A DNA stretch of 27,466 nucleotides. Source: a virus. This document shows, piece after piece, positions 23,887-27,364 of this stretch (the stretch's first letter is position 1; every line of letters begins with the position of its first letter). Under the pieces are notes generated by a model that was given only the letters and a program-made list of their open reading frames with translations, did no database searches and was not told where the DNA came from. The position numbers were made by a program, and so were the translations under genes. The DNA lies in IMG/VR virus record IMGVR_UViG_3300005747_000146, positions 1-27,466 of that record; one strand, given 5' to 3'.

Positions 23887-24786
23887 TTAGTCGTCTTCAG
23901 CCATCGCCTTAAAGAAATCGAGGCTGTCATCTGACTCATCGTTGCTCCAAGAGGTTTCCTCTTTTTCTACCTTTGGAGCTGGAGCCTGACGAGGCGCAGG
24001 AGCAATGTCCTCGTCAACCTCCTCTGCAGTAGAGGATACTGCAGTGGCACCAAGAACTCGATTGAGTCGAGTCTGAAGTTCTTCAAAACTCTTGAAGTTC
24101 TTGGCATCGAGAAAATCTTGGAGTGAATATTCAGTACCCCAAATCTTCTCCATCTCATCGTCGTCTTCCAAGAGAGCAGATGGTGAATCGAACTCAGACT
24201 TATCATAGTTACGATAGCCTTCTACGTTACGAATCTTCATCTTGAAGTTAGCACCTTCCCAAAAGTCGAAAGGATTGACCGGAGTTTCATCCTCAAACTC
24301 AGGATTCATCTGGTCGTTGATCTTATCAAAGATCTTCTTTCCGAACTTGTATAGGAATACCTTACCTTCATTCTCTGGGTGAGCAGGATCCTTTACCACA
24401 TAGATGTTTGCGATATAGGATAGACGACGCTTCTGCTTACGAGCCTGTTCCTTACCAGCTTCGTCACCACGATTCCACAGAGTGGAGTTATACTCGCCGA
24501 CAGGATCCTTCTTGCCGAGAGTGGTTAGAGAGTTCTCAATGTACCAGCCACCTGGACCCTGAAAACCATGCGAGAATAAACGTACCCAAGGAATGTCTTC
24601 GCTCTTTGGTGCAGGAAGGAAACGGATAACGGCATAACCATTACCAGCCTTATCAACCTCAGGTTGCCAGAACCGAGTATCAGCTCCACCACTCTGATTG
24701 CCACCCTGTACCTTATTGGTTTCCTGTACGATCTTATCGTACATGGATTTGCGAGAACGCTTGAGATCTGCGAAAGATGTAGTCAT
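23887..24786 (-). CDS. gp32: Single-stranded DNA-binding protein gp32
   Basis: This 299-aa protein matches T4 gp32 (301 aa). An N-terminal basic motif KRSRKS (residues 9-14) corresponds to the LAST cooperativity motif. The core contains SYIANIYVVKDPAHPENEGK, then VFLYKFGKKIFDKINDQM and PFDFWEGANFKMKIRNVEGY, which follow T4 closely. The C-terminus is acidic (SNDESDDSLDFFKAMAEDD), the arm that recruits replisome partners. The whole protein contains no cysteine, so the zinc site of T4 gp32 (His and three Cys) is absent; in its place lies GPGGWYIENSLTTLGKKDPV and a basic segment. A clear SD (GGAG) precedes the ATG, and a hybrid sigma70/late promoter lies 60 bp upstream. gp59 is upstream in the same operon. 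Confidence 0.95.
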   Translation of the reverse strand: MTTSFADLKRSRKSMYDKIVQETNKVQGGNQSGGADTRFWQPEVDKAGNGYAVIRFLPAPKSEDIPWVRLFSHGFQGPGGWYIENSLTTLGKKDPVGEYNSTLWNRGDEAGKEQARKQKRRLSYIANIYVVKDPAHPENEGKVFLYKFGKKIFDKINDQMNPEFEDETPVNPFDFWEGANFKMKIRNVEGYRNYDKSEFDSPSALLEDDDEMEKIWGTEYSLQDFLDAKNFKSFEELQTRLNRVLGATAVSSTAEEVDEDIAPAPRQAPAPKVEKEETSWSNDESDDSLDFFKAMAEDD

Positions 24787-24845
24787 TTATATTTCTCCGT
24801 ATTAGATATATTTTGTCTTGTCCACATAAGCATCATATAACAGTT

Positions 24846-24876
24846 TATTTATACTACGCATGAGAGGAAAAGGCAA
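24846..24876 (-). promoter_or_regulatory. gp32 promoter: sigma70 -35/-10 whose -10 is also a late octamer
   Basis: On the minus strand, TTGCCT (24876-24871) is followed after exactly 17 bp by TATAAATA (24853-24846). The hexamers fit a host sigma70 promoter, and the octamer alone fits the T4 late consensus. It lies in the 98-bp non-coding gap before gp32, giving a leader of about 55 nt. Confidence 0.6.
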
Positions 24877-24884
24877 TAGATTTA

Positions 24885-25046
24885 TCAGAAAAATTTATCC
24901 TGTTGAACAGTCATTTCGTCATACGACAAATTGTCTTGATTGAAATAATTCTCCTTTTGTAAATAACTAAGGTCCATTTCTAGTTCCTTAACTCTATTTC
25001 TGAGGTAACGAAGTTCCCCTTCGTATTTTTCTAATTCAAGATTCAT
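24885..25046 (-). CDS. Short coiled-coil protein (53 aa) between gp59 and gp32
   Basis: This small gene runs from ATG at 25046 to TGA at 24885. The SD is strong (AAGGAGATGATCC then ATG), and the start overlaps the end of gp59 by 11 bp, as in coupled genes. The product begins MNLELEKYEGELRYLRNRVK and continues ELEMDLSYLQKENYF with Leu, Tyr and Val at heptad spacing over residues 3-32, so a coiled coil is likely. The remainder is polar (NQDNLSYDEMTVQQDKFF). I do not recognise a family. Its position suggests a partner or regulator of gp59 or gp32, which is inference. Confidence 0.65.
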   Translation of the reverse strand: MNLELEKYEGELRYLRNRVKELEMDLSYLQKENYFNQDNLSYDEMTVQQDKFF

Positions 25047-25653
25047 GGATCATCTCCTTAATCATGTTACGATACTGATTGGTATCATAAGTAAGAAATT
25101 TACGGTACTTAGAGATAAGTCTAGCCTTTTCCTCCCATACTATGTCATCAAGTTTGACATTCCAGTATCGAATAAATTTCAAAACACTATCCATTATGAT
25201 AACAGTTTCGATATCGACCTTTTTTTGAAGCAACAGCTTCAGTAGTAGAGGATGATTGCCATCCTCTACCAATAATAATTTATTAAAGTCAAGATCCCTA
25301 TTCCGGCAGTAATCAAACAAAAAATATAACTCGTTACGAAAATGATAGCTAAGAGATTCCATGCGTTTTTTAAATTGAACATAATTCTCCTCACTTTCCT
25401 GTGAAACCAGATTACCAATCCAATTATCGCTGATGACAAAGTTGCTAACAAAGAACTTTACCAACTCCTCATTGTCATATTTTTTAGCAAGTTTACGAAA
25501 GAAGAACTTATCCTTTCGTTTTAAAAACGATTCGACGTTTGCCCGAACCTTGCCATTGTATTTGAAGTAATCGTAGTCACTTGAAAAGTGTCTCTTCAAC
25601 GCAAGGTAAGTTTTATAGGCATCATAACCTTCAGCAACGTCATACATGGTCAC
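25036..25653 (-). CDS. gp59: Replicative helicase loader gp59
   Basis: This 205-aa protein follows T4 gp59 (217 aa) along most of its length: AYKTYLALKRHFSSDYDYFK, KRKDKFFFRKLAKKYDNEEL, VKFFVSNFVISDNWIGNLVS, and near the C-terminus IMDSVLKFI with DDIVWEEKARLISKYRKFL. gp59 binds forked DNA and gp32 and loads the gp41 helicase. It is strongly basic and all-helical. It overlaps gp33 by 4 nt (ATGA-type) and the 53-aa gene by 11 nt. The gp33-gp59-gp32 order is the same as in T4. Confidence 0.93.
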   Translation of the reverse strand: MTMYDVAEGYDAYKTYLALKRHFSSDYDYFKYNGKVRANVESFLKRKDKFFFRKLAKKYDNEELVKFFVSNFVISDNWIGNLVSQESEENYVQFKKRMESLSYHFRNELYFLFDYCRNRDLDFNKLLLVEDGNHPLLLKLLLQKKVDIETVIIMDSVLKFIRYWNVKLDDIVWEEKARLISKYRKFLTYDTNQYRNMIKEMIHES

Positions 25654-25877
25654 ACCGGAAGTTTGTTAATCTTTTCCTTCATCATATTCAGATCGCTTGC
25701 TTCAGAGGCGATCGACTGTTTAATCTTTGTGTTAATAAGTTTTGCTGCAACCTCAATCTCCATATCATGCCTTTCGCAATAATGAACGATAGCGTCCATA
25801 TATGGTATCTTGAGTTCGCATACCATCTCCTCGATTTTCATCGAGAAGGATTTCATATTGATCATTTCTTTTCCCAT
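25650..25877 (-). CDS. gp33: Late transcription co-activator gp33
   Basis: This is a short (75 aa; T4: 112 aa) gp33-like protein. The helical segment FSMKIEEMVCELKIPYMDAI followed by VHYCERHDMEIEVAAKLI resembles the T4 gp33 core (IEKMVEEFGMSYLEA...), followed by a conserved acidic/helical end (SIASEASDLNMMKEKINKL). gp33 bridges RNA polymerase, the gp55 late sigma and the sliding clamp at TATAAATA promoters. The 5' end overlaps the hydrolase gene by 16 bp. Three in-frame ATGs (codons 1, 5 and 8) are possible starts and none has a strong SD; the first is used here. The call depends on similarity recalled from T4 and on the neighbouring gp59 and gp32. Confidence 0.75.
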   Translation of the reverse strand: MGKEMINMKSFSMKIEEMVCELKIPYMDAIVHYCERHDMEIEVAAKLINTKIKQSIASEASDLNMMKEKINKLPV

Positions 25878-26365
25878 TTGTAAAATATGTGATCCTCGAT
25901 TTTAGTAGTGCGTGTTTTGGTTTTTGCCCATGCTGGTGATACATAGTAAGCATGGTAGTGTGTCGCACCAGTTGTAATGTCAATCATATCTTGATTCAAC
26001 AACATACGAGCTAGGCGATAAATGGTGCGATACTTATCCTCGTTATGGATCTTATCCGATTTACCATCACAGTACCAGGAGAACTGGCAGCGATTACGGA
26101 TAGGGATCATTTCCCCCGATCCACTCCAAGAAGCTCGGTGCGGACCCTCCATTACAACATCACAGACTGTATCTGGGAAGCGAGGGTCATTTACTCGATT
26201 GAGTGTTACCTGACCAACTGCAACCTGGCCAGCAATGGACTGACTCCTTGCCTCGTGATAGATATTCAATGCGAGGCAGGAGACTTCCTGGTTTGATGCG
26301 CTTACCTGACCGCTACCGCCAATCAGAATTGCGCCTAACAATAGTTTTGCGAGTGCTTGTTCCAT
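25862..26365 (-). CDS. SleB/CwlJ-type cell wall hydrolase (probable endolysin)
   Basis: This 167-aa protein has a hydrophobic N-terminus (LAKLLLGAILIGGSGQVSA) that looks like a signal or signal-anchor segment. It then has the Hydrolase_2 (SleB) family pattern: CLALNIYHEARSQS, with E38 the likely catalytic acid, VAVGQVTLNRVNDPRFPDTV, QFSWYCDG, and GATHYHAYYVSPAWAKT near the C-terminus. It should cut peptidoglycan, acting in the periplasm if exported. It is the first gene of the hydrolase-gp33-gp59-gp32 group. A near-consensus sigma70 promoter ends just before its ATG, and no SD is visible, so it may be read from a leaderless or very short-leader mRNA. It could serve in lysis or as a substitute for the lysozyme missing from gp5. 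Confidence 0.85.
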   Translation of the reverse strand: MEQALAKLLLGAILIGGSGQVSASNQEVSCLALNIYHEARSQSIAGQVAVGQVTLNRVNDPRFPDTVCDVVMEGPHRASWSGSGEMIPIRNRCQFSWYCDGKSDKIHNEDKYRTIYRLARMLLNQDMIDITTGATHYHAYYVSPAWAKTKTRTTKIEDHIFYKWEKK

Positions 26366-26371
26366 TTTTTA

Positions 26372-26400
26372 ATTCTACGCCATTTAGTATTAAAAGTCAA
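26372..26400 (-). promoter_or_regulatory. Strong sigma70-type promoter before the hydrolase/gp33/gp59 operon
   Basis: On the minus strand, TTGACT (26400-26395) and TAGAAT (26377-26372) are separated by exactly 17 bp. This is one mismatch from consensus in the -35 and one in the -10 box. The expected start site falls at or next to the hydrolase ATG (26365). The promoter lies immediately after a terminator, so it starts an independent unit. Confidence 0.65.
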
Positions 26401-26403
26401 TGG

Positions 26404-26435
26404 AAAAAAATGGGGAGCTGACCGTTGGCTCCCCA
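26404..26435 (-). terminator. Terminator after the outer-membrane-like gene (hairpin copy A)
   Basis: An 8-bp perfect stem (TGGGGAGC / GCTCCCCA, 26411-26418 with 26428-26435) with a 9-nt loop is followed on the minus strand by seven T (26410-26404). It ends the 124-aa gene's transcript. Its core is identical to the hairpin at 26866-26888. Confidence 0.8.
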
Positions 26436-26463
26436 CGTGTCTATTAAGCGACAAACCTGACTG
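26409..26463. repeat. Imperfect 55-bp direct repeat, copy A
   Basis: This copy shares a block of 26 identical bases (26409-26434) with 26863-26888, then 19 of the next 29 bases with the second copy. It ends exactly before the stop codon of the 124-aa gene. Confidence 0.75.
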
Positions 26464-26838
26464 TTAAAACTGAATACGTGTTTTAACACCAACGATCTTA
26501 GAGACTTCCTCGAAGTCCTTATTGACATTGTATTCACCGTAAGGTGATACGGTCAAACGATCCATAACGTCAATATCATACTGAGCGCCGAAGGCAACAT
26601 TATTGATGTCGCTGGCGTCCCAATCCATGGTTGGCTTGGCCGATAAAGAGAAACCGGAAATACCAGCTTCAATGCCGAACTCGGTCTGCGCCTTTTCAGT
26701 ATCAATGTTATATTCAGTGTCAGTTACAAATGCCAAATCAATCTTATCCATCATAGAAGGTGCTGGGGCTGGATCAGCAGCATATGCTGCGGTTGATAAC
26801 CCTAGCACAGCTGCGAGGGTAACGATTGTCTTTGTCAT
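26464..26838 (-). CDS. Small secreted outer-membrane beta-barrel-like protein (124 aa)
   Basis: A Sec signal peptide is clear: MTKTIVTLAAVLGLSTAAYA, with cleavage likely before ADPAPAPS. The mature part (about 104 aa) has alternating polar and hydrophobic beta strands (AFVTDTEYNIDTEK, QTEFGIEAGISGFSLSAKPT, VAFGAQYDIDV, LTVSPYGEYNV) and ends KTRIQF with a terminal Phe, the usual outer-membrane-protein ending. It is shorter than a standard 8-stranded barrel, so it may oligomerise or be a reduced porin-like protein. Near-identical hairpins bracket the gene, and a TATAAATA motif lies 95 bp upstream. The SD is AAGGA. Phage outer-membrane proteins (for example lambda Lom) can alter the host surface or block superinfection; that role here is inferred. 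Confidence 0.7.
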   Translation of the reverse strand: MTKTIVTLAAVLGLSTAAYAADPAPAPSMMDKIDLAFVTDTEYNIDTEKAQTEFGIEAGISGFSLSAKPTMDWDASDINNVAFGAQYDIDVMDRLTVSPYGEYNVNKDFEEVSKIVGVKTRIQF

Positions 26839-26862
26839 TGAATTATTCCTTGTTATTGAAAG

Positions 26863-26917
26863 AATGGGGAGCTGACCGTTGGCTCCCCCCGTGCGTATTA
26901 CGGCGCAACCCGAACTG
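26863..26917. repeat. Imperfect 55-bp direct repeat, copy B, with hairpin
   Basis: This is the second copy of the 26409-26463 repeat. Its hairpin (26866-26872 with 26882-26888, 7 bp) is followed on the minus strand by ATTCTTTC, a poor T-tract, so it would be a weak terminator for the upstream genes. It lies in the leader of the 124-aa gene if the late promoter at 26933 is used. Confidence 0.7.
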
Positions 26918-26921
26918 AATC

Positions 26922-27155
26922 TCAGTCTTTGTTATTTATAAATGACTGAAGTTTTTCCGCCTGAGCAATAATCTCCTCAGGTGTGAACATCTTAGGCACG
27001 TATTTATCAACGTCCTTGTAGATATCCTTATTTGACTCCATAGCCTTGGTCATTGCTTCCCATGCCATATTTGAAGCCTGTTCATACTGACGGTCAAGCA
27101 TTTCCTTGGCCATTGTCAATAGATCAAAACGAATTTCATATGGATTCTTGCTCAT
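26922..27155 (-). CDS. Conserved T4-like marine phage protein, unknown role (77 aa)
   Basis: The protein begins SKNPYEIRFDLLTMAKEMLD and is helical throughout, with a C-terminal YVPKMFTPEEIIAQAEKLQS segment. From memory, similar 70-80 aa proteins with 'NPYEIR...MAK..L..QY' occur in many T4-like cyanophages without an assigned function. Its start overlaps the previous gene by 4 nt (ATGA), so the two are coupled. No Cys, membrane segment or catalytic motif is seen. The end of this gene contains the TATAAATA motif thought to drive the 124-aa gene. Confidence 0.65.
   Translation of the reverse strand: MSKNPYEIRFDLLTMAKEMLDRQYEQASNMAWEAMTKAMESNKDIYKDVDKYVPKMFTPEEIIAQAEKLQSFINNKD
26933..26940 (-). 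promoter_or_regulatory. Probable late promoter (TATAAATA) for the outer-membrane-like gene
   Basis: An exact late promoter octamer on the minus strand lies within the last codons of the 77-aa gene (SFINN), 95 bp before the 124-aa gene. A transcript from here would carry hairpin copy B in its leader. Confidence 0.5.
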
Positions 27156-27364
27156 GATATAGCTCCTTTTACAAAGGTCTTCATATCCTCACCAGCCTTT
27201 TCAACAGCCTTTGTCATCTCCTCGAGCTGGTTACTAAAGAACCGATAGGTGTATATATCCGATGCTTCAGCAAAGGACTTCCAGCCCTGCACCTTAAGAT
27301 CAATCATAGCATCAAAGAACATACGATTATGAGTCTTAGCAGTTTCAACATTATAAAACATCAT
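27152..27364 (-). CDS. Small helical phage protein, unknown role (70 aa)
   Basis: This 70-aa protein begins MMFYNVETAKTHNRMFFDAM and continues LKVQGWKSFAEASDIYTYRF with an amphipathic C-terminal helix (EEMTKAVEKAGEDMKTFVKG). The composition and helix pattern are slightly phasin-like, but I cannot name a family. The start overlaps the stop of the upstream partial gene by 1 nt (TAATG) and the end overlaps the 77-aa gene by 4 nt, so all three are one translational unit. Confidence 0.6.
   Translation of the reverse strand: MMFYNVETAKTHNRMFFDAMIDLKVQGWKSFAEASDIYTYRFFSNQLEEMTKAVEKAGEDMKTFVKGAIS

Follow-up and report, generated by a model that had tools for sequence, protein, structure and literature searches.

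Duplicated repeats around a probable outer-membrane-protein gene of a marine T4-like phage are copies of a covarying two-hairpin RNA element

Introduction

Why does a phage carry two similar repeats on either side of a single small gene? We addressed this question for a window of 27,466 nt, the whole stretch of DNA analysed here, which is part of a marine T4-like phage with gp32, gp59 and gp33 at 23887–25877. Its gp32 is only about 59% identical to the closest among the matches listed for named phages (cyanophages and marine single-cell records). The minus strand reads p70, p77, repeat B, a 124-aa protein here termed OMP, repeat A, a SleB-type hydrolase, gp33, gp59 and gp32 (Table 1). The first-pass annotation had proposed that the OMP gene arrived or is exchanged as a unit between similar terminators, or that the terminator was duplicated on insertion. 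Intergenic stem-loops have been linked to such events before: the promoter early stem-loops (PeSLs) of T4-like phages (Arbiol 2010; Comeau 2014) are reported to act as joints of gene shuffling (cited in PMC4503421).

Table 1. Features of the repeat locus and its neighbourhood in the window.
Feature	Position	Strand	Evidence or remark
p70, 70-aa gene	27152..27364	-	left block p70+p77 99% identical to OMP-less phages L086-L088
TATAAATA, T4-type late-promoter-like box	26933..26940	-	p77 3' end, ~33 nt before hairpin 1 of copy B
p77, 77-aa gene upstream of copy B	26922..27155	-	regular neighbour of phage permuted tmRNA
Copy B of two-hairpin RNA element	26852..26916	-	R2 covariance-model match, 68.9 bits, E 4e-19
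OMP, secreted, Phe-terminated, outer-membrane-barrel-like, exchanged gene	26464..26838	-	124-aa ORF; family alignment A4; AlphaFold2 model
Copy A of two-hairpin RNA element	26398..26462	-	R2 match, 69.3 bits, E 3e-19
Sigma-70-like promoter TTGACT-17-TAGAAT	26372..26400	-	directly behind U-tract of copy A, ahead of SleB gene
Cell-wall hydrolase (SleB / Hydrolase_2), first gene right of cassette	25862..26365	-	Pfam PF07486 E 3.5e-25
gp33-like late-transcription coactivator	25650..25877	-	Pfam PF16805 E 1.3e-18

Results and Discussion

The repeats flanking the OMP gene

A block of 26 nt is identical in both copies (26409–26434 and 26863–26888), and the homology extends beyond it over 59 nt at 81% identity (26405–26463 and 26859–26917). 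When up to 3 mismatches were allowed, the 23-nt core of the repeat gave 2 matches in the real sequence versus none in 100 shuffles. Read on the minus strand, each copy starts 0–4 nt past a stop codon, copy B behind p77 and copy A behind OMP, and the pair brackets exactly one gene, the secreted-type, Phe-ending ORF at 26838–26464. Copy A carries a strong U-tract (ATTTTTTT) and copy B a weak one (ATTCTTTC). The motif TATAAATA stands ahead of copy B at 26940–26933 on the minus strand, within the 3' end of p77. All of this agrees with the first-pass annotation, which had also described the homology around the identical block as decaying. The weaker homology is real, but the flank upstream of the GC-rich hairpin proved to be a second hairpin that had been overlooked.

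This hairpin, hereafter hairpin 1, pairs TGCG with CGCA in copy B (TGCG-CCGTAATA-CGCA, 26907–26892) and TGTC with GACA in copy A (TGTC-GCTTAATA-GACA, 26453–26438), that is, the pairing is kept and the sequence is changed. The GC-rich hairpin 2 follows at 26888–26866 in copy B and at 26434–26412 in copy A. Hairpin 2 pairs slightly better on the plus strand (two G-U pairs). Since covariation, gene orientation and U-tracts all indicate the minus strand, we take the latter as the strand of the element.

A covarying two-hairpin RNA element

The repeat is not just a terminator that was duplicated: both copies are instances of a two-hairpin RNA element that covaries and is widespread. Its layout, a 4-bp hairpin 1 covarying in all pairs followed by a terminator-like hairpin 2 with a conserved loop, recurred in many viral contigs in pattern scans. 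In a MAFFT alignment of 27 copies (A2) hairpin 1 is 100% paired with 4 of 4 pairs changed on both sides, and the structure score is 0.308 compared with at most 0.088 for slid controls. A covariance model recovered more diverged copies. In the resulting alignment of 59 copies, which is fitted to the model and leans towards the structure, 10 of 11 pairs are changed on both sides and the score is 0.626 versus at most 0.142 for the controls. Conserved positions comprise a GGU that precedes hairpin 1 in the majority of copies, a hairpin-1 loop ending mostly in AAUA, a CGY between the hairpins and the loop CxNGGUNA of hairpin 2. A search of Rfam 15 gave no match over the element at the gathering threshold and none credible at a relaxed threshold; the element constitutes a previously uncatalogued RNA family, supported by covariation, that Rfam does not contain.

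Two further pairings, a kissing loop CCGU/ACGG and an outer stem GGGU/AUUU, fit many sequences but showed no two-sided changes and were discarded as unsupported. In L065 (463–527), where the element lies between tRNA genes and an IscA/HesB-like gene, an outer pairing AAGGU/ACCUU is possible, unlike in most other copies. By eye, hairpin 2 looks like a tRNA D-arm.

Genomic context of the element

Each of 13 IMG/VR records gave one strong match, as did the complete genome of Methylophilales phage Melnitz (14 records, up to 151 kb); the window, L001 and L002 were the only ones seen with two copies. No element was present at E <0.1 in nine further named phage records (cyanophages, a pelagiphage and single-cell records), and a pattern search of bacterial genomes did not find it. 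For nearly all elements the distance from stop codon to stem is −2 to 39 nt, and 47 of 57 have at least 5 T within the 9 nt after hairpin 2. A clear U-tract is missing in about one element in five and is poor in copy B.

The genes behind the element are very diverse and include gp33, SleB, p77-like and other genes, among them, judged by sequence, clamp-loader-, radical-SAM- and aldolase-like genes. Often the gene before it codes for a small, secreted protein with a terminal Phe that can be aligned with the OMP of the window. At 56 of 65 OMP-family loci the element directly follows the stop codon, a count biased upwards by an OMP profile (A5) that was built solely from element-linked OMPs. In a count restricted to new and untruncated contigs 29 of the 65 were left aside as already seen (by contig name), as were 3 of the 36 new ones, which end at OMP, and the element was present in 27 of the remaining 33. 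The six exceptions carry a plain terminator instead (four loci) or run straight into the next gene (two loci). Many contigs are near-duplicates from related samples and overlapping metagenomes, so that these counts do not stand for independent events; the IMG/VR records are mostly fragments.

Linkage to permuted tmRNA

Among element loci that are long enough to tell, nearly all have a permuted tmRNA, in two pieces, upstream of the element and on its strand. Per record, tmRNA was present in 15 of 16 element records versus 5 of 12 element-less records (Fisher p 0.004), and in 12 records it is separated from the element by 212–823 nt on the same strand. Exceptions to this close spacing are G001 and G006, where the tmRNA is 4.4 kb away, G005, where it is not adjacent, and G004, in which no good tmRNA was found. 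Several genes lie in the 4.4 kb between tmRNA and element in G001 and G006 (L169 and L165), suggesting an insertion or a moved element. For p77 there are 39 relatives, and in many of them the tmRNA is located just upstream; the contig of the window ends short of the position that the tmRNA occupies in L086, about 160 nt beyond p70. A candidate leader RNA of OMP in a second group was in fact the tmRNA's 3' part.

Melnitz (L178) is the only cultured phage found to carry the element (40 bits, E 1.6e-9), which lies at MZ577097.1 46,557–46,614 between the tmRNA, 212 nt away, and gp33. Its ssrA / glutamine-riboswitch / coactivator region resembles the window group in the permuted tmRNA and the two-hairpin element followed by gp33, but differs in having no OMP between tmRNA and gp33 and an AU-rich hairpin 2. 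The excerpts of PMC9004378 that describe this region note the riboswitch and the tmRNA and make no mention of the two-hairpin element. A minus-strand hypothetical gene annotated over the element (46492–46593) is probably spurious.

Exchange of the OMP gene at the elements

The first-pass annotation had suggested looking for relatives with a single hairpin in place of the gene. Such relatives exist: L086–L089 have p77, one element and SleB. Their element is a hybrid, with hairpin 1 of type B and a right flank after hairpin 2 that equals the one after copy A in L002. Compared with the OMP-less L087 the window is 98–100% identical across p70, p77 and element B and about 82% on average from SleB onward, and its right block stays at about 82% to all relatives compared. 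Compared with L001/L002 it reaches 97–98% over OMP (98–100% in most blocks) and mostly 73–93% outside OMP. L002 and L089 in turn share 99.7% on the right side and 84% on the left side. These identity profiles therefore indicate three blocks of different history that meet at the two elements.

L003 has OMP with element B and a plain terminator in place of A. In another group OMP and element are 94–100% identical while the upstream and downstream neighbours have been swapped independently, and here the right-hand identity switch falls at the end of hairpin 2. The hybrid OMP-less site, the identity switches and the swapped neighbours argue for exchange of an OMP cassette at the elements, which is well supported by these comparisons of sequence. 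What had been proposed thus holds for exchange as a unit, given the hybrid site and the switches at both elements, but the repeats are two-hairpin RNA elements and not merely similar terminators. Copy A is OMP's own 3' element, and copy B is part of the tmRNA-p70-p77 side that is kept in OMP-less relatives. The picture would be identical whether OMP was inserted into an existing element or deleted between two elements.

Promoter-like and terminator-like sequences

An exact TATAAATA is present within 45 nt upstream of 10 of 49 elements versus 0.5% of control positions. As the box occurs in a minority of copies, a late promoter was rejected as a fixed part of the element. Where the element comes next, the last codons of p77 spell TATAAATA (window 26922–26945, L003, L144, L090 and L101), and the p77 end is free of it in L092–L095 and L135, where another gene follows, with L099 as an exception. 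This tie to the downstream element suggests a late promoter inside p77. Sigma-70-like boxes similar to those behind copy A stand at the same place in the SleB group, with box matches of 9–11 of 12 that are only moderately better than shuffles and weak on their own; by eye, an early promoter behind the other copies was not seen as a rule.

Based on its position, the U-tracts and its replacement by plain terminators, we regard the element as a 3'-end element that usually ends the upstream transcript. It has the sequence features of an intrinsic terminator, hairpin 2 with a U-tract and a stop codon a few nt upstream, and termination would be its likeliest role in cis. The strong conservation of hairpin 1 and of the loops, together with the single copy per genome, indicates that termination is not the whole story; a small RNA and a role tied to the tmRNA are the alternatives to be considered.

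Possible roles of the element

We consider it probable, with considerable room for doubt, that the repeats represent one conserved RNA element that ends tmRNA/small-OMP transcripts and also serves as recombination joint for the OMP cassette. The element would normally end the transcript of the phage tmRNA / small-OMP neighbourhood as a terminator-type 3' end, with hairpin 2 and the U-tract presumably terminating transcription. Because closely related marine T4-like phages carry a nearly identical element at this site, it would provide a short homology patch. Recombination within it, presumably homologous, would insert, remove or swap OMP along with its own 3' element, and the window would show the locus with OMP inserted (p77, element B, OMP, element A, SleB). 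Against this explanation, neither a covarying hairpin 1 nor conserved loops are required of an ordinary terminator, and a generic terminator would hardly be expected just once per genome. Moreover, copy B stands between the late-promoter-like box and OMP, and strong termination at B would therefore silence OMP from that promoter.

Loops conserved beyond the needs of termination, one strong copy in 14 of 14 element records next to widely differing neighbour genes, and the enrichment of TATAAATA upstream (10/49 versus 0.5%) would all suit a phage-encoded small RNA of about 50 nt that acts in trans. Such an RNA would arise at the 3' end of the tmRNA/OMP operon, either by cleavage or by transcription, in some cases driven by a late promoter of its own; hairpin 2 would terminate it, and the conserved loops would be its working parts. 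We regard such a small RNA as rather unlikely: about 70% of the copies have no obvious late promoter, the element and the upstream gene's stop codon overlap in Melnitz, L131 and L142, and the CCGU/ACGG loop-loop pairing that a compact RNA could use lacks two-sided changes. It appears improbable that the element serves the tmRNA by acting, within the permuted pre-tmRNA transcript, as a structure for processing, stability or regulation. The same-strand tmRNA upstream of nearly all elements, 212 nt away in Melnitz, would fit this role, but whole genes (p70, p77, OMP) separate the two, G007, G008, G010, G015 and Mosig have a tmRNA and no element, and the distance grows to 4.4 kb in two records, with no good tmRNA found in G004.

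We regard it as very improbable that the element has no further function and is simply a duplicated terminator or an ordinary promoter/terminator composite of the PeSL type. Like the PeSLs as cited in PMC4503421, the element is an intergenic stem-loop in T4-like phages that acts as a joint for gene shuffling, as seen from identity switches and swapped neighbours. In the SleB group its terminator-like hairpin and U-tract are followed by a putative sigma-70-like promoter. Unlike PeSLs, which occur in many similar copies per genome in shuffled regions, it has one strong match per record in the 13 IMG/VR records and Melnitz. It further differs in its extra covarying hairpin, its conserved loops and its linkage to tmRNA and OMP, and an early promoter directly behind it is absent from most copies.

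Tentatively, the element might represent a new class of phage structured RNA, single-copy beside permuted tmRNA and small OMP in marine T4-like phages, in which a regulatory RNA doubles as joint for surface-protein cassettes; we would sooner doubt than assert this. A guess from one sequence has become a documented presence/absence polymorphism in uncultivated marine phages, with breakpoints at a defined RNA element. It ties an RNA family absent from Rfam to the phage tmRNA, and with Melnitz in culture the element RNA is directly testable.

The exchanged protein and its slot

The product had been described as a signal-peptide protein ending in Phe, and this is borne out by its signal-peptide-like start (MTKTIVTLAAVLGLSTAAYA) and its end (...TRIQF). 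A β-barrel had been expected for it. The AlphaFold2 model predicts six long antiparallel strands (pLDDT 64, core 75–81) and resembles cyanophage OMP-like barrels, which are among the best viral matches in Foldseek (E 1e-3 to 6e-3); however, confidence is moderate and non-OMP barrels match too, the structural matches in the PDB being general barrels at Z 6–9 tied with non-OMP folds. The cyanophage barrels (for example S-CAM3 A0A1D8KJB2, MedDCM D6PH08 and the P-SSM4 DUF680 protein Q58LB0) are small and their predicted fold aligns with the OMP model, but they share 12–18% identity with the OMP of the window and were not found by sequence, and the cyanophages searched have no element. Sequence searches of Pfam, PHROGs and PDB gave nothing significant for OMP, and tblastn did not find it in named phages. 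For the effect on the infected cell's surface that the first-pass annotation had suggested, superinfection exclusion or envelope remodelling, the only database hint, PHROG 'Cor superinfection exclusion', is at noise level (E ~0.2). The protein is likely to sit in the outer membrane.

In L166 (236–1024) and L140 (6675–7463) a 263-aa secreted Phe-ending protein precedes the element and replaces the small OMP. Other secreted-looking proteins were found after the element in L090 (560–1081), L096 (4725–5255) and L101 (4321–5271), two of them matching PHROG 20531 (unknown function); the slot behind the element may therefore be a general one for envelope proteins.
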